Below are positions 56,937 to 63,656 of a stretch of DNA of 64,000 bases, in pieces. The stretch covers positions 1 through 64,000 of the forward strand of contig NZ_JALKBE010000006.1 of assembly GCF_023015885.1 (NCBI RefSeq). The letters run 5' to 3'. The notes under the pieces were generated by a model. It saw only the letters and a program-made list of their open reading frames with translations. It was not told the origin of the DNA and did not search any database. How positions within the stretch are numbered: position 1 is the stretch's first letter; every line of letters starts with the position of its first letter. The position numbers and the translations under genes were made by a program. The stretch comes from Aliiroseovarius sp. S1123. GTDB lineage: Bacteria; Pseudomonadota; Alphaproteobacteria; Rhodobacterales; Rhodobacteraceae.

Positions 56937-59567
56937 CTACGCTTTCTGCGTCCAATCCACGCAAGGGATGCTGCCGTTCAAACGAAAGGCGATTGCCTGC
57001 AAGATGACACCATTGGTGTTGACGTCGCTATAGGCCTGATCCGATTTGCCAGTCACCGAGAATACTCCGGGGCTGAAGCCCAGCTTATCTGTCGTCGCTT
57101 TCTCGCGGACCTGCGCGACCAAGCGGTCCGTATAGTCGTTCGGCCTGCAGGCGTTCCACAGGAAGGCGCCTTTGCTGTTCAGCATATCGACCGCACGGAC
57201 AAACCCCTTGGTCTTGAAACGTGGGGACGGATCAAGGGTTTCGGCAGTCCATTGGCCGCCATCGTCGGTGATCTGATAGCCTTGATACACAAACCACGGC
57301 GCGCGATTGACGGGGCCTTCCGAAACGCAGACCAGCTTGCCGGTTGCGCGGTATTCGTCGATCTGCGCGGCGAACAAAGCCTCGGCGGCGGTGCCGGCCA
57401 GAGGCGATGCACCAAGTTCTACTGCCTCAAGAAGATGGGGCTCGGTGCCGATTGGGCCGAACTTTGCCACATCATGCAGAATTTGAACCCCTTGATCGAA
57501 GGGGGATCCGGGGCTGGGGGCTGCGTAGGGCGAGGTCACAGGATAGTCCCAAAGGCTAAAACCGCGTGCGATGTATCCGGCGTAGTTGGATCGGTAGGCA
57601 GACACCAGTTTGCCGCCACGCACCGTCATTGGTGCGCCGTCTTGGATGGTCTGTTCCAAGTCCCACCCGGCAAGAATGCCTGAGATCCCCAGATCCTGCT
57701 TGGTATAGGATTGGACCAGATGAAGCGCGGTCAGCAAGCGCGAGGTGTCGCTTGCATTATAGTCATCGTCCCCCTTGGCCTTGCCATCGGTCGACGTAAG
57801 TCCCTTGGGTAAACCAAGCCCGTTGAACGTGCCGGTCGCCAGCCCGCCAAGGACCGCTTTCAACCGGGCGGTATATTCGTCGTCCTCCAATATGCCGATG
57901 CTATGTGCACTCATGATTGCCAGCAGATGGGTCCCTGTGTCCCACATCGTGCTGAACCGATAGGTCTCAATCTGGTCGTTTTCGGCCCACGCCGTCGCGG
58001 GCGCCAGCCCGGTCGCGGGATCGGTCAAACGCGCGAAATAGGACCAAGCGGTTTTGGCGTCCTGCATAAGCTGTTCGCGCTCATTATTCGCGACGGCGCT
58101 GGGCGCACGTGCTGGCCAGCGGCTGGCAGCGCGAAGAAGCCGCGCTGGTTCGCTTTTTATCGATACAGCGCTGAAGTGATCTGCAAGGTCCAATAGGCGA
58201 AACTGTTCCGAGCTTCCCAGTGTGATCAGGGTGTTGACCAGCGTCTGTACGTCTTCGGGTCGCGTGAAGGCGCTTTCCTTGACCAGTATGGTGGCGTCTT
58301 CACCGAGCGGGGCAGATTGCAGCAGTTTTTCCTGAAACCTTTGCGTAGAGATCGGCGCATCAAGCACCATTGATACCCCAAGGTGAAGCGAACCTTGTGC
58401 GTCAAATCCGATATCGCCTTTGCGGGTTTCGGACATGTCAAGAACGACCTCGAACCCGGCGAGGGTACGGGTGTCCGTGGGCATGGACTTTTCGCGCTCA
58501 AGCGCGACGCTGTGCACGGCAACGCCAGTGCTCGTGTCGAATGCGGCTTTCCGTATGCTTTGCCAATCGTGCGTGTCCGGGCTTGATGCCAGAAAACATC
58601 TGTGAGGGGTCTTTTCCGTCAAGTCGTCTACGGTATTGGCGGGTGGCACGGGCGGCAGAAGCTCGGTGAAGGGAACATGCGCTGCGGCAAGTTGCGCCCT
58701 GAGGCCGTTTTCGGCTTTTGCGGACCCGGCGGCGTCGAGGCAAAGAACCATGTGACGGGCGAAAGCGGCACCCGAGCGGAAGCGGAGCTCCGAGGGTAAA
58801 ATGAAATAGTTGCGACTAGAGCTCAAGGCGCGCCGAAAGCTGTCACCAAGAACGGCGCCCTGATCGAAAAAGGCATCATCGCCTTGCATGTCTTCGCCTG
58901 GAAAGGACGCGACGAAAACCAAGGGTCCGTCTTGCGATGCTGCTTGCGTGAATGTGGTCTTGATCTCATTTGCGGAGGGCATGAGGGGAAACGTCCATCC
59001 CCCGTTCACTTGCTGTGTGCCATCCGCATTGCGCCAGACCTCGGTCGTGCTGCCGTCGTTCGGGATCAAGAATGAGGTCAGAAACCCCGCAGATCGAAGC
59101 CCTTCAAGCGTCGGAGTTTCGCCGTCAGGCAGGTCGGAAATCAATGTTTGCGGCGTGTAAGTCCCGCCAACTTTGGCCATCGCCTGCCCGAACCGGTTGC
59201 GCGCTGTGCTGGCGGCGCGCATTCGCAGATAGGGAAGCGCGCCTGCAAGCCCCGGTATCTCGATCGCCAAATCCACCAGACCGGGATAGTCGATGATCAG
59301 CCTTTGCAACACCTCCATCAACTCGGTGTTCTGGTCTGCGCTTTCCCATTCCGCTTGGTCGAACTTGATCGCTACGCAGACGGGCACGTTGTGTGATGTG
59401 ATCGGATCCAGAAAGGAAAAGAGCGCCGATGCCGAGCTGCGCGGCGTTACATTTCGGACAAACAACAGGCTGGGATGCGTGGCTGCGGCATGGGCCATTT
59501 GCCAGGGCGAAGAAAGTGCTGCCGCTCCTCCGGCCAAGGTGCGAGAGAGAAATGTCCTGCGATCCAT
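56937..59567 (-). CDS. Tat-exported DUF3131-domain protein
   Basis: An 876-residue exported protein. The N-terminus DRRTFLSRTLAGGAAALSS is a twin-arginine signal. Residues about 30-500 contain two alpha/beta segments with some likeness to polysaccharide-deacetylase-like folds but no visible NodB metal motif. Residues about 505-865 form the DUF3131 region, an alpha/alpha-toroid like glucoamylases (TAWSYFARLTDPATGL, FSTMWDTGTHLLA, RSNYAGYIARGFSLWDYPV). It diverges from the GH18/CE4/GT2 fusion; a role in trimming or guiding an exported polysaccharide is likely. Start at 59567 follows GAGGAG. Confidence 0.83.
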   Translation of the reverse strand: MDRRTFLSRTLAGGAAALSSPWQMAHAAATHPSLLFVRNVTPRSSASALFSFLDPITSHNVPVCVAIKFDQAEWESADQNTELMEVLQRLIIDYPGLVDLAIEIPGLAGALPYLRMRAASTARNRFGQAMAKVGGTYTPQTLISDLPDGETPTLEGLRSAGFLTSFLIPNDGSTTEVWRNADGTQQVNGGWTFPLMPSANEIKTTFTQAASQDGPLVFVASFPGEDMQGDDAFFDQGAVLGDSFRRALSSSRNYFILPSELRFRSGAAFARHMVLCLDAAGSAKAENGLRAQLAAAHVPFTELLPPVPPANTVDDLTEKTPHRCFLASSPDTHDWQSIRKAAFDTSTGVAVHSVALEREKSMPTDTRTLAGFEVVLDMSETRKGDIGFDAQGSLHLGVSMVLDAPISTQRFQEKLLQSAPLGEDATILVKESAFTRPEDVQTLVNTLITLGSSEQFRLLDLADHFSAVSIKSEPARLLRAASRWPARAPSAVANNEREQLMQDAKTAWSYFARLTDPATGLAPATAWAENDQIETYRFSTMWDTGTHLLAIMSAHSIGILEDDEYTARLKAVLGGLATGTFNGLGLPKGLTSTDGKAKGDDDYNASDTSRLLTALHLVQSYTKQDLGISGILAGWDLEQTIQDGAPMTVRGGKLVSAYRSNYAGYIARGFSLWDYPVTSPYAAPSPGSPFDQGVQILHDVAKFGPIGTEPHLLEAVELGASPLAGTAAEALFAAQIDEYRATGKLVCVSEGPVNRAPWFVYQGYQITDDGGQWTAETLDPSPRFKTKGFVRAVDMLNSKGAFLWNACRPNDYTDRLVAQVREKATTDKLGFSPGVFSVTGKSDQAYSDVNTNGVILQAIAFRLNGSIPCVDWTQKA

Positions 59568-59742
59568 CACCACTCCTCAGAAATACCGCTCGACCCACCA
59601 TTGCAGCTTTAGTCTTGGCCGCCAACTACCAAGACGTCACACCCGGCATGCCTGCGACCATATACGCATTCCTTCAGCGTACCGGCTGTGACAGACTAAT
59701 GAAAACGCCAGCCTAGAACGGGACGCGATACAGGTAACTGAC
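59568..59742. promoter_or_regulatory. divergent promoter region of the polysaccharide genes
   Basis: The 175 bases between the divergent start codons should hold both promoters. I see no clear hexamers or inverted repeat. The rightward gene begins with TTG at 59743 and only a weak AGG before it. Confidence 0.3.
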
Positions 59743-62700
59743 TTGAACAGCCAAAAAGACAACAGGGACAAGCCCAAGGCGAAGCCGATATTCTTCGATC
59801 CGACGTCCCATCGGCTCGTTCTTTTCAGCGTGTTGTCAGCTGTATTCTTGGTGTTTGCCGTGGTCTGGTTCGTGTCTTTCCTAGTCCATCTGCATGAGTC
59901 CGAGCTGCCGCCTCAGGTCGGGAATTCTGACTTAAGTAAGACAGAAGTGTCCGATGCCATCGGATCACCAAACCTGACAGAGGACGAGGCTGCCACAGCG
60001 TCGCAAGCGCAGCTTTGGACGGACGCAATTGAAGGCACTATTCTGCCCGGTGACGTCTACATCGCCCAAGATGCAAAGGTGCACGCCTTCGTGCCGTCAT
60101 GGTCGATGGCGGGTTATGTCGAAGCGCGAACGCATATCGACGCGATAGATGTTCTGATGACCGACTGGGTCACGATTGATGGAACAACTGGTGCGGTAAC
60201 GACCCCTTCTGCGCCCCAGAAGGATAAGCTTCGGGAGTTATGGGCATCAAACAAATCTCGGGTTAGTTTTTTCCCCGTTGCCCAGATCGAGTTCGCCCAA
60301 GGAAGAACGCAACCAAATGTGTTTACCTCGGTCGCGAAACAATCTGGTTTGATCTCTGCGCTGACATCCGTAGCTGTTTCTGAAGGCGCCGAGGGGCTGT
60401 GTGTGGACCTTTCGGGTGCCCCCAATGTGACGGTGCAAGACCTGGTGGGTTTTGCGACAACTTTGCAGGCCGGGCTTGAGGCGGCGGGGAAAGACAGCTG
60501 TCTCATCGCGGGTACCGATCATGCGCTTTGGGCACAGCCGAATGCGGGTGATCTTGCGGACAAACTGATTGTGCTCGCTTTCAATGAACCGGGACCCTTC
60601 AGCGGCCCCGAGCCGCTGGCGCCGCAGGCGTGGTTCGAGGCGAAAGTCTCGAAGCTGTTGGAGAACTTGCCAGCCGAGAAAGTGGTCGTCGCCATTGGCG
60701 GGTTCGGCATGGACTGGATCAGCGCCAGATCGACACCGGAGTATCTGAACTATTTCGATGTCGTAGAGGCCGTGCAGCGGCACAGTGGCACACTGCGCAT
60801 TGACCAAGACGCCTTGAACACGGAAGCGCGGTTTCTGGATGACAAAGGGCAGCGGCATCACATCTGGCTTTTGGATGCTCTAAGCGGGCACAACCAGCTG
60901 TCGCGCTTGCCCCTTGGCGATTTGGATGGGGTCGCGATTTGGCCGGTGTCTGGTGGGGATCCCGGTATTTGGAAGATCATCTCTCCGGGTTTGCCGGACC
61001 CAAAGATTGCGCGGGACTTTCTGCAAAGGATCAGCGCCGCACCCTATGTAAACTATGTCGGCACAGGTCCGTTCCTGACAGGACACAACTCGGCAACGCC
61101 CGGCCGACGCATCCTGCAACTGGATCAAGAGAGCGGCTTGATCGTCGAGGCGACCTATCTGGACTACCCGCGCGCCTTCACGGTGACACAAAGCGGCGAC
61201 CTGCCGGATCGATCGGTCATCCTAACCTTCGACGACGGACCCAGCGCGAAATACACACCTGCGATCTTGGACATTCTCAAGGAGCATGATGTTCCAGCGG
61301 TCTTCTTTGTGATTGGGACGCGGGTTCAGCAGAACCCCGATATCGCGCGCCGCATTGTGGACGAAGGGCATGAGCTGGGCGTGCATACCTACCTTCACCC
61401 CAATATCGCCGAGGTCTCGGACCTTCGCCTCAAACTCGAGCTGCATGCCTCGCAAGAGCTGATCGAAAGCGTTTCGGGAAAAAGCACCAATCTGTTTCGT
61501 GCGCCCTATGGGTTTGATGAAAACCCCGAGACTCCGAACGAAGCGCGGGTTCTAAGCCTGTTGTCGGACGAGAACTATGTGGTCGTCGGGATCGAGATCG
61601 ACTCGACCGATTGGACCCGTCCGGGCGCCGAGGAAATCGCGAGAACTGTAACGTCACGGGCCGAGGCAGGTTTAGGCAGCGTCGTCTTGCTGCATGATGC
61701 GGGGGGTGATCGCGAACAGACGGTCCAGGCGCTACCCATGATTATTCAGTCGCTCAAGGATGCCGGGATTTCCGTTGTGTCTGTCGCCAGCGTCGCTGGC
61801 CACGATAGCCGCCTCAAGCCGGCCATTTTGGTGGAAGAAAGCGATCAGATGAGCGGCATGTCGTTCTTGCTGATCCGCAGCCTGAAAACCGCGGTTACAA
61901 CGGCCTTTTTTGTGCTGATTACCGCGGGTGTCTTCCGGTCTTTTACCGTCCTGATCTTGGCACTGATCAAGGAACGTCGTGTTCACAAGGGCGGCGAACC
62001 GGTCTTGCCGGTGTCGGTGCTGATCCCGGCCTTCTGCGAAGAAACGGTGATCGTGAAGTCGGTGACGTCGGTGCTTCAGTCGACCTATCCGATTGCTCAG
62101 GTGATCGTGATTGACGACGGCTCGACCGATGACACGGCTCAGGTGGTCAGCGACCATTTCGGGTCCGACCCGCGCGTGCGCCTGATCCGCCAAAACAATC
62201 AAGGCAAGGCCGAGGCACTGAATAACGGCATCCAGCACATCGATACGCCCGTCTTCGTCGCCATTGATGCCGACACGATCATCGCGCCCGAGGCGGTCGG
62301 AGAGTTGGTCAAGCATTTCAATGACGATGAGGTTGGCGCGGTTGCTGGAAATGTCAAAGTTGGAAATCGGCGAAATCTTATTACGCGTCTTCAGGCCATT
62401 GAATATATATCTGCGCAGAATTTGGACCGTCGCGCTTACGAGGTTCTGAACGGGATCATGGTGGTTCCGGGGTCCATCGGGGCCTGGCGCACCGAGGCGG
62501 TAATCGCGGCGGGCGGATACACGACCCAAACACTTGTCGAGGATGCGGACCTGACGGTCTCGGTCATTCGTAGTGATTTTAAGGTCGTATTCGAACCTGC
62601 AGCCCTTGCCTACACAGAGGCACCGGAAACCATCCGGCAGTGGATGCGCCAAAGATTGCGCTGGCATTTCGGAATGCTGCAAATTGCGTGGAAGCACAAA

Positions 62701-63189
62701 GGCGCGTTTTTTGAGCGACGTGCCGTGGGATTGGTGTCGATCCCTGATCTATTCCTATTCGGCGCCGTATTTTCCCTGTTTGCGCCCATTGCGGATCTGG
62801 TGATGATCTTCAATCTGTTTGCACTGGTCGATCTCTTCAATGACGACTCGCGGGCGGCCCTTCAAAGCTCGTCCATATTGGTTGCCATCGGCTATGTGGC
62901 CTATTTGCTGTCAGACCTTGTTCTGGCCACCATCGCGTTCGGGCTTGAACCCAAAGAGGATAAGCGCCTGTTGCCGTGGGTTCTGACCCAAAGGTTCTTC
63001 TATCGTCAGATCTATTGGATGGTGGCTCTGCGCTCTCTTGCGCGGGCGATCACCGGGCGCTTTACCGGGTGGCGCAAGATCACGCGCACATCGTCGATCG
63101 ATCTAAAAAGCGCGCTCGAGCTTTCAAGGGCGCGGGCGCGCGTTGTTCACGTAGATAAGGCCGCGGATGATCAAGGTGGGCAGGCTTAA
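59743..63189 (+). CDS. GH18-like / polysaccharide deacetylase / GT2 glycosyltransferase fusion
   Basis: A 1148-residue membrane fusion. After a signal anchor (residues 27-48) comes a GH18-like barrel (about 90-430), a CE4/NodB deacetylase (about 488-680; TFDDGPS, HTYLH and RAPYG all present), then a membrane helix (about 715-745), a processive GT2 domain (about 755-985; DDGST, DADT, VEDADL and QRLRW) and three or four membrane helices. It could polymerise, export and de-N-acetylate a beta-linked GlcNAc-type polymer in one chain. In the GH18 segment the usual DxxDxDxE catalytic Glu is absent (GLCVDLSGAP near 217-226). Starts with TTG. Confidence 0.88.
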   Translation: MNSQKDNRDKPKAKPIFFDPTSHRLVLFSVLSAVFLVFAVVWFVSFLVHLHESELPPQVGNSDLSKTEVSDAIGSPNLTEDEAATASQAQLWTDAIEGTILPGDVYIAQDAKVHAFVPSWSMAGYVEARTHIDAIDVLMTDWVTIDGTTGAVTTPSAPQKDKLRELWASNKSRVSFFPVAQIEFAQGRTQPNVFTSVAKQSGLISALTSVAVSEGAEGLCVDLSGAPNVTVQDLVGFATTLQAGLEAAGKDSCLIAGTDHALWAQPNAGDLADKLIVLAFNEPGPFSGPEPLAPQAWFEAKVSKLLENLPAEKVVVAIGGFGMDWISARSTPEYLNYFDVVEAVQRHSGTLRIDQDALNTEARFLDDKGQRHHIWLLDALSGHNQLSRLPLGDLDGVAIWPVSGGDPGIWKIISPGLPDPKIARDFLQRISAAPYVNYVGTGPFLTGHNSATPGRRILQLDQESGLIVEATYLDYPRAFTVTQSGDLPDRSVILTFDDGPSAKYTPAILDILKEHDVPAVFFVIGTRVQQNPDIARRIVDEGHELGVHTYLHPNIAEVSDLRLKLELHASQELIESVSGKSTNLFRAPYGFDENPETPNEARVLSLLSDENYVVVGIEIDSTDWTRPGAEEIARTVTSRAEAGLGSVVLLHDAGGDREQTVQALPMIIQSLKDAGISVVSVASVAGHDSRLKPAILVEESDQMSGMSFLLIRSLKTAVTTAFFVLITAGVFRSFTVLILALIKERRVHKGGEPVLPVSVLIPAFCEETVIVKSVTSVLQSTYPIAQVIVIDDGSTDDTAQVVSDHFGSDPRVRLIRQNNQGKAEALNNGIQHIDTPVFVAIDADTIIAPEAVGELVKHFNDDEVGAVAGNVKVGNRRNLITRLQAIEYISAQNLDRRAYEVLNGIMVVPGSIGAWRTEAVIAAGGYTTQTLVEDADLTVSVIRSDFKVVFEPAALAYTEAPETIRQWMRQRLRWHFGMLQIAWKHKGAFFERRAVGLVSIPDLFLFGAVFSLFAPIADLVMIFNLFALVDLFNDDSRAALQSSSILVAIGYVAYLLSDLVLATIAFGLEPKEDKRLLPWVLTQRFFYRQIYWMVALRSLARAITGRFTGWRKITRTSSIDLKSALELSRARARVVHVDKAADDQGGQA

Positions 63190-63656
63190 CTGCACACCTG
63201 AAAATCAACGGTCCCCGAACCCGATCCAAAGCGCCCCATCGTGAACTTCTCGATGTCGATCAGGAAACCGTCGCCGCCAAGGTTTTTCGTGCAGCAACCG
63301 TTGCAGTCGGTATCCGCACACAGGTCGAGCACCTGAACAACAATCTCGCGGTTGCCCTGACGCAGGCGTAGGTGCTTCCCGCCAAGACGCCGCCAGTCCT
63401 TTTGGTGAACTGCAGCGATGTTTTTGCTGGCCACCCAGCTTTCGGATTTCTTGCCGTTTACACCGTAAAACTGACCGGCCCATTTGCATCCATTGTACTT
63501 GACGCATTCGACACTGCCGGGATCAGGATAGCTTTCATAATTGGTCAAAGCCGCGCGTTGCCAGTCACCTTTGCAGGTCACATCTGCCGTTGCCACTGAT
63601 GCGATCAGCGAAAGAAACAAAAGCAAAAAGGGTCTCAGTGTTTTCGACAAAATCAT
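63186..63656 (-). CDS. small secreted cysteine-rich protein, double-psi-barrel-like
   Basis: A 156-residue protein with a signal peptide (MILSKTLRPFLLLFLSLIASVATA) and eight or nine cysteines in the mature part (VECVKYNGCKW, DLCADTDCNGCCTKN, FQVCS). The pattern of LGGKHLRLRQGNREIVVQVLDLC with FLIDIE and RFG-FQVC resembles expansin/barwin-like or RlpA-like double-psi beta-barrels. Its stop overlaps the end of the GT2 fusion tail-to-tail by 4 bases. It might bind the polymer made by the neighbours. Fold assignment is tentative. Confidence 0.7.
   Translation of the reverse strand: MILSKTLRPFLLLFLSLIASVATADVTCKGDWQRAALTNYESYPDPGSVECVKYNGCKWAGQFYGVNGKKSESWVASKNIAAVHQKDWRRLGGKHLRLRQGNREIVVQVLDLCADTDCNGCCTKNLGGDGFLIDIEKFTMGRFGSGSGTVDFQVCS

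Follow-up and report, generated by a model that had tools for sequence, protein, structure and literature searches.

The 64,000-nucleotide stretch of DNA analysed here (the window; positions 1 to 64,000 of contig NZ_JALKBE010000006.1 of Aliiroseovarius sp. S1123) encodes, at 59743-63189, a fused polysaccharide synthase in which a GH18-like domain, a CE4 deacetylase and a GT2 synthase are joined. Loss of GH18 catalysis in this protein is well supported by comparison with its relatives. Beyond the earlier observation made on the window alone, the loss extends to a whole clade, where it coincides with a pair of Cys residues in the barrel and with a neighbouring gene of the DUF3131 family. Taken as a whole, these data are best explained (probability about 0.65) by a synthase and deacetylase chain bearing a non-cutting GH18-derived barrel, with the DUF3131 partner working alongside. 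The features of the barrel are as follows.

60064..61032, + strand: GH18-like TIM barrel, residues 108-430, judged non-catalytic (AlphaFold model, structure matches)
60391..60414, + strand: former DxxDxDxE motif, residues 217-224, EGLCVDLS, with Ser224 at the Glu position (alignment)
60400..60402, + strand: Cys220, fourth barrel strand, fixed in 25/25 clade rows (alignment; strand from the model)
60499..60501, + strand: Cys253, fifth barrel strand, fixed in 25/25 clade rows (alignment; strand from the model)
60577..60588, + strand: former xYDx site, residues 279-282, AFNE, Tyr changed to Phe and Asp to Asn (alignment)

A total of 46 rows of the fused family were collected, counting the two pieces of a broken gene separately, and 42 were scored; the unscored rows are L056, whose contig begins past the motif, L098, which has just its GT2 part, and both L065 pieces. 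Glu224 is kept in 15 of the 42 scored rows and absent from 27. In the alignment with 3cz8 (YdhD), GLCVDLSGA of the window protein lies opposite GVTIDFEQV and Ser224 faces the motif Glu, which we take to be the catalytic Glu of the GH18 DxxDxDxE motif. The original prediction had noticed GLCVDLSGAP in place of DxxDxDxE and considered the domain to be seemingly dead in catalysis; the first observation holds and the second is well supported: the string occupies residues 218-227 with Ser224 opposite the YdhD Glu, and the window protein is devoid not only of Glu224 but also of the Tyr and Asp of MxYD (positions 280 and 281) and of N182, M278, Y321 and Y323. Each of these seven residues is present in 15/15 Glu-bearing rows; in the clade described below E224 occurs in 0/25 rows, and the other six persist in few or some. 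These seven are among 16 positions conserved in 14 or all 15 of the Glu rows yet in less than half of the 25 clade rows; W325, W375, D378 and G454 are retained in all 25. Judged on the missing Glu, the window protein would not belong to GH18 as an active hydrolase.

Of the 27 Glu-less rows, 25 form one clade (branch support 100/99) in a tree built from the GT2 part alone, with the GH18 and CE4 columns excluded; the same branch holds 28 rows when two partial rows and one broken-gene piece are included. Its members include Sulfitobacter, Limimaricola, Boseongicola and Aliiroseovarius, the others coming from the source organism's own genus or family, and on the alignment Glu loss appears as a property of a Rhodobacterales clade. 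Eight of the 25 rows derive from the source genus or its nearest relative, so the rows are not independent. The Actinobacterial outgroup did not fall on one side of a branch, which leaves the root unsettled, and gain and loss were read by parsimony: the tree needs one change for the Cys pair, one for the DUF3131 neighbour, one for the loss of CE4 and two for Glu. Long branches were flagged for L059, L057, L093 and both outgroup rows. The Glu-less rows outside the clade are L102, from another family of the class, and L057, from Verrucomicrobia, with Gln in place of Glu.

The pair formed by Cys220 and Cys253, assigned to strands 4 and 5 by strand order in the model, is present in 25/25 clade rows, in 0/15 Glu rows and in neither of the two other Glu-less rows. 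A disulfide bond between them is possible. The GH18 piece of the broken gene L065 likewise lacks the Glu and has the Cys pair. This gene, on a plasmid of Sulfitobacter sp. OXR-159 (L065 4218-7727), is split into two frames and adjoined by elements of the IS21 and IS5 families.

Evidence that the altered domain is maintained came from the comparison of coding changes among five same-genus rows. In 10 pairs, omega ranged from 0.123 to 0.199 for the GH18 part, from 0.042 to 0.103 for CE4 and from 0.039 to 0.062 for GT2; these ranges exclude five pairs with L082, in which synonymous sites were saturated in at least one domain, and some of the pairs kept have a synonymous divergence (dS) above 1. 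Since omega of the GH18 part is low yet above that of its neighbours, this part is under purifying selection and is held less strictly than CE4 and GT2. A role of the GH18 part in binding or guiding the polymer, as the original prediction suggested, is compatible with this selection and would be a predicted role only.

The sampling behind these counts was as follows. A search with the GH18 part (E-value limit 1e-12, with no more than five candidates per genome scored) gave matches in 9 of 385 genomes of the class and 10 of 398 of the phylum, both searches counting the source genome and two genomes of the family. A match in genome G884 (a 358-residue frame with an internal stop) gave no fused protein and was dropped. 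In the family search the two best candidates per genome were scored and, among the matches listed, all fused ones lay far above the threshold. In the plasmid collection 20 records cover at least 80% of the query; ten of the 40 listed matches were used, so that many near-identical Sulfitobacter and Sphingobium plasmid records do not figure in the counts. Of the seven loci from the search that gave the Aliiroseovarius contigs, five repeat genomes already counted.

The remaining features of the fused gene are listed below.

59743..63189, + strand: fused gene, 1148 amino acids, in the order membrane helix, GH18-like, CE4, membrane helix, GT2, membrane helices (open reading frame, domain matches, hydropathy)
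59818..59874, + strand: N-terminal membrane helix, residues 26-44 (hydropathy, flanking charges)
61198..61812, + strand: CE4 (NodB-type) deacetylase, residues 486-690, motifs intact (PF01522, 121 bits)
61864..61968, + strand: membrane helices between CE4 and GT2, residues 708-742 (hydropathy)
61990..63072, + strand: processive GT2 synthase, residues 750-1110, motifs intact (PF00535, 111 bits)

The fused gene is a real gene encoding one chain. Its reading frame starts with TTG, and the alignment with a relative from the same genus begins at residue 1 (86% identity). The same gene is found on five Aliiroseovarius contigs (61-86% identity), three of which correspond by coordinates to genomes of the same-genus search (86, 84 and 78%), and is accessory within the genus (7/21 genomes, source genome included). 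CE4 enzymes are recognized by their metal and catalytic motifs and GT2 enzymes by DxD, ED and QxxRW. In the window protein TFDDG, HTYLH, APYG and LHD of CE4 and DAD, ED and QRLRW of GT2 are all present. The original prediction of a single 1148-residue chain joining hydrolase-like, deacetylase and synthase domains is thus confirmed by the reading frame and the domain matches, its view that the CE4 and GT2 motifs look intact agrees with both complete sets read directly in the protein, and the structure prediction of the GH18-like segment that it had proposed, once run and compared with GH18, returned a real GH18 barrel. With its N-terminal helix the protein would have both its GH18-like part and its CE4 part in the periplasm, and more membrane helices are indicated by hydropathy near the C-terminus.

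In the AlphaFold model of residues 108-465 (alignment of 21 sequences; predicted local distance difference test score, pLDDT, 89.1) the barrel superimposes on the Chromobacterium chitinase 5jh8 with Z 30.9 and a root mean square deviation (rmsd) of 2.7 over 301 aligned residues. On this model the GH18-like part is a genuine GH18 TIM barrel. Solved GH18 proteins were also matched by sequence (5jh8, E 6e-9; 3cz8, E 1e-6; also SleL). GH18 was not detected in the window protein by Pfam (PF00704) or among the best 25 of 47 NCBIfam matches, so the assignment rests on the solved-structure matches and the model. PF00704 scored above cut-off in five of seven other GH18 domains scanned (Deinococcus, Sphingomonas, Sphingobium, Prevotella and the Verrucomicrobia relative), which supports a common origin of the domain; since it misses the Glu-bearing Novosphingobium row L061 and detects the Glu-less L057, it cannot separate live from dead domains.

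The second component of the system is encoded divergently from the fused gene.

56937..59573, - strand: partner gene, 878 amino acids, twin-arginine signal, DUF3131 half with an (alpha/alpha)6 glycosidase-type fold (PF11329, 220 bits)
56973..58061, - strand: DUF3131 domain of the partner (PF11329 match)
59574..59742, no strand: 169-base gap between the divergent genes (coordinates), likely a shared promoter region

Within the flanking DNA covered, a DUF3131 homolog adjoins the fused gene in 25/25 clade rows and in 0/17 of the other scored rows; neither the partial locus L098 nor the broken locus L065 shows such a neighbour, and L056 was too short to tell. As the twin arginine is present in 25/25 partners, export of the DUF3131 protein by the twin-arginine translocation (Tat) pathway is likely. 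In a family-wide set of 248 genomes, each from a different genus, the fused gene occurs in 16 (17 genes) and the long DUF3131 form (frames of 823-1164 residues) in the same 16 (17 genes). The long form is absent from the other 232, of which 40 have shorter or much longer DUF3131-matching frames, any DUF3131 match being found in 56 of the 248. In genome G033 the GT2 part occurs by itself and nothing matches DUF3131. The 18 genomes or plasmid records that represent forms outside the clade (five searched on the plasmid only, and one, G884, without a fused protein) yielded a DUF3131 match in one case, to part of a 2991-residue frame.

The model of the partner (alignment of 23 sequences; pLDDT 88.2) shows a C-terminal half that matches the GH189 cyclization domain 8wy1 (Z 33.3, rmsd 3.1, 342 residues) and the GH144 glucanase 5gzh (Z 28.3, rmsd 3.2, 337 residues), and on these grounds the partner has the (alpha/alpha)6 fold of the GH144/GH162/GH189 clan. 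This clan is outlined as defined by one Glu, one Phe and one Tyr (PMC12102758), and catalysis by the GH189 domain is described as using two Glu residues (PMC10834661). Six acids of the partner are invariant in 25/25 rows (D426, D505, D609, E711, E752 and D850). Based on the modelled fold, the DUF3131 protein may be regarded as a candidate replacement cutter. Its N-terminal half gave weak Foldseek matches to a few NodB-fold deacetylases (best E 1.7e-4) and a sub-threshold Pfam match to DUF2334 in one of four proteins scanned; these matches are too weak to support an assignment.

A further gene lies convergent to the fused gene.

63186..63656, - strand: small gene, 156 amino acids, signal-like N-terminus, Cys-rich, secreted-looking (sequence features)

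Among the loci searched, it stands beside the fused gene in the genus and in two near relatives (L100 and L056); the small gene itself matches no Pfam family, and its sequence matches to solved structures are at chance level.

As for the polymer, N-acetylglucosamine is most likely its building block by analogy, because the top NCBIfam match of the GT2 part (among the best 25 of 47 matches) is PgaC/IcaA (TIGR03937) and MatB, a CE4-GT2 protein, is needed for poly-N-acetylglucosamine (PNAG). In Streptomyces, MatB is described as a single chain in which a membrane helix separates an extracellular CE4 from an intracellular GT2 and which is needed with MatA for PNAG (PMC5972031); it resembles the fused protein in its CE4, membrane helix and GT2 order; the difference is that neither a GH18 part nor a DUF3131 gene is named in the portions of that article drawn on here. 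Plasmid proteins of Streptomyces and Kocuria match residues 477-1134 at 35-36% identity and differ in that their match sets in only after the GH18 part, at residue 477 or 491. On a Kocuria rosea plasmid (L117 2671-5976) a gene annotated as bifunctional polysaccharide deacetylase/glycosyltransferase stands beside a separate, convergent gene annotated as chitinase.

PgaC/IcaA synthases make beta-1,6-linked N-acetylglucosamine. PgaC is a GT2 synthase, and together with PgaB in Escherichia coli and Bordetella it provides the same set of parts: a GT2 synthase, a CE4 in the periplasm and a barrel in contact with the polymer (for PgaB, as outlined in PMC5933820). There, however, the parts are separate proteins and the PgaB barrel is an active GH153, as described in that article, whereas here it is a Glu-less GH18 derivative. 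By analogy, the fused protein would work like MatB or like PgaC with PgaB, plus a non-catalytic GH18 barrel. The closest counterparts are the Glu-intact GH18-CE4-GT2 proteins of Sphingobium, Sphingomonas, Novosphingobium, Deinococcus and Prevotella, which share the domain order over nearly the full length, but keep D-x-E and Y-D, lack the Cys pair and have no DUF3131 match on their carrier plasmids. Genes of VirJ type and of lysyl-phosphatidylglycerol synthase (MprF) type lie close to the Glu-bearing form in Sphingobium and Sphingomonas (L060 8078-11423; L062 3732-4484 and 10911-12982). The animal chitinase-like proteins YKL-39, SI-CLP and Ym1 also have the GH18 fold (Z 27.4-28.5), YKL-39 being a pseudo-chitinase with retained oligosaccharide binding according to the title of 4ay1; they differ in being stand-alone and eukaryotic, and no shared origin of the loss is implied. 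The GH189 cyclization domain and the GH144 beta-1,2-glucanases share the (alpha/alpha)6 fold with the DUF3131 partner, at 11-13% identity. Among the titles and abstract openings listed for open-licence PubMed Central articles on the fused architecture, on DUF3131 and on bacterial GH18 pseudoenzymes, no paper was found on the fused family or on DUF3131 function.

Three other explanations were weighed and discarded: a sequencing error within the motif, as GLCVDLS also occurs in four same-genus rows; a single odd gene, as the Glu loss is common to 25 rows of one clade; and a chance likeness to GH18, given the Z of 30.9 to chitinase 5jh8.

The GH18 part might still cut if another acid, e.g., Asp/Glu141, Asp222 or Glu282, replaced Glu224, and the PgaB barrel, described as an active GH153 hydrolase without the GH18 consensus motif (PMC5933820), is a precedent for this. 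The nearest thing to a replacement acid is position 141, with D or E in 22/25 clade rows compared with 2/15 Glu rows; it is, however, T, A or G in three clade rows, and positions 222 and 282 are not constant among the rows. Across the 25 clade rows there is no newly fixed acid, the only one present in all of them (D378) being also present in 15/15 Glu rows, and Tyr280, Asp281, Tyr321 and Tyr323 are mostly lost as well, so that retained hydrolysis appears highly improbable. A slowly decaying relic that merely spaces CE4 from the membrane would agree with the omega of the GH18 part being above those of CE4 and GT2, with the varied residues that replace Glu (S, A, T, R, G, H), with the locus L098, which yields the GT2 part only, and with the loss of the CE4 motifs, GT2 motifs intact, in four sub-branch rows (L094, L095, L096 and L097). 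Against such decay, omega of the GH18 part is well below 1, relatives can be aligned over the whole domain at 19-81% identity, and the two Cys and several Trp, Asp and Gly are fixed in 25/25 rows; a relic is considered unlikely.

A non-cutting barrel with a partner at work beside it is preferred, and several observations weigh against it. As regards the possible disulfide, a third Cys, at position 132, is found in 16/25 clade rows. Pair by pair, the GH18 part has an omega higher than that of CE4 by a factor of 1.2-4.6 and higher than that of GT2 by a factor of 2.4-4.3, a pattern that slow decay would also produce. The identity of the product comes from analogy, and the 201 bits of the fused protein against TIGR03937 lie below the 422-bit equivalog cut-off of PgaC/IcaA. 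Since the tree needs just two changes for Glu, one of the losses outside the clade is separate, and the remaining one, that of L102, could be either common to L102 and the clade or distinct. The link between Glu loss and DUF3131 amounts to one event on the tree, among related genomes whose counts are not independent, and the genomes of the Glu-less L102 and L057 gave no DUF3131 match, which indicates that the partner is not needed for Glu loss.

It can be proposed that the fused protein is a polymer synthase of the inner membrane that carries a deacetylase of its own, in which, as the intact motifs suggest, the cytosolic GT2 would add sugars and pass the chain through the membrane and the periplasmic CE4 would strip some acetyl groups from it. 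The GH18-derived barrel ahead of CE4 would no longer cut. By parsimony, it would have been converted at the base of the Rhodobacterales form, with the active site lost and the Cys pair fixed on the neighbouring strands 4 and 5, and kept as a non-catalytic part, most likely to hold or steer the nascent chain or to dock the partner. The DUF3131 protein with its Tat signal would work with the fused protein, and its glycosidase-like half would be the best candidate for any remaining cutting or transfer.

An addition to this explanation, and not its opposite, is that the DUF3131 protein took over cutting or transfer and so allowed the GH18 site to be lost. The one-to-one presence and adjacency of the two genes, the fold like that of GH189 and GH144 enzymes, the six invariant acids and the twin-arginine signal pointing to the same compartment argue for such a hand-off, while the single tree event, the two Glu-less rows without DUF3131 and the fact that the nearest known enzymes act on beta-1,2-glucan and not on amino sugars, as far as the sources drawn on describe them, argue against it; we regard it as tentative, with the balance somewhat on the negative side. 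In genome G146 two fused genes (L085 and L095) and two DUF3131 genes are found, with the CE4 motifs intact in one pair and lost in the other. On their sequences, the four proteins L094-L097 would be synthases with two dead periplasmic domains. The fullest history, in which an ancestor of the Rhodobacterales form turned the fused chitinase-type cutter of a polymer synthase into a Cys-linked, non-cutting chain guide, passed cutting or transfer to a Tat-exported DUF3131 enzyme and, in a sub-branch, also gave up the deacetylase, leaving a synthase with two dead periplasmic domains, is doubtful in its entirety.

If the preferred explanation is true, these proteins would allow intact and disabled forms of one three-part synthase to be compared cleanly as they occur in nature, suggest a testable function for DUF3131 proteins, and add a bacterial pseudo-chitinase inside a biofilm-type polymer machine. 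They would also bear on why synthases carry fused hydrolases, that is, on whether these serve in cutting or in holding the chain.

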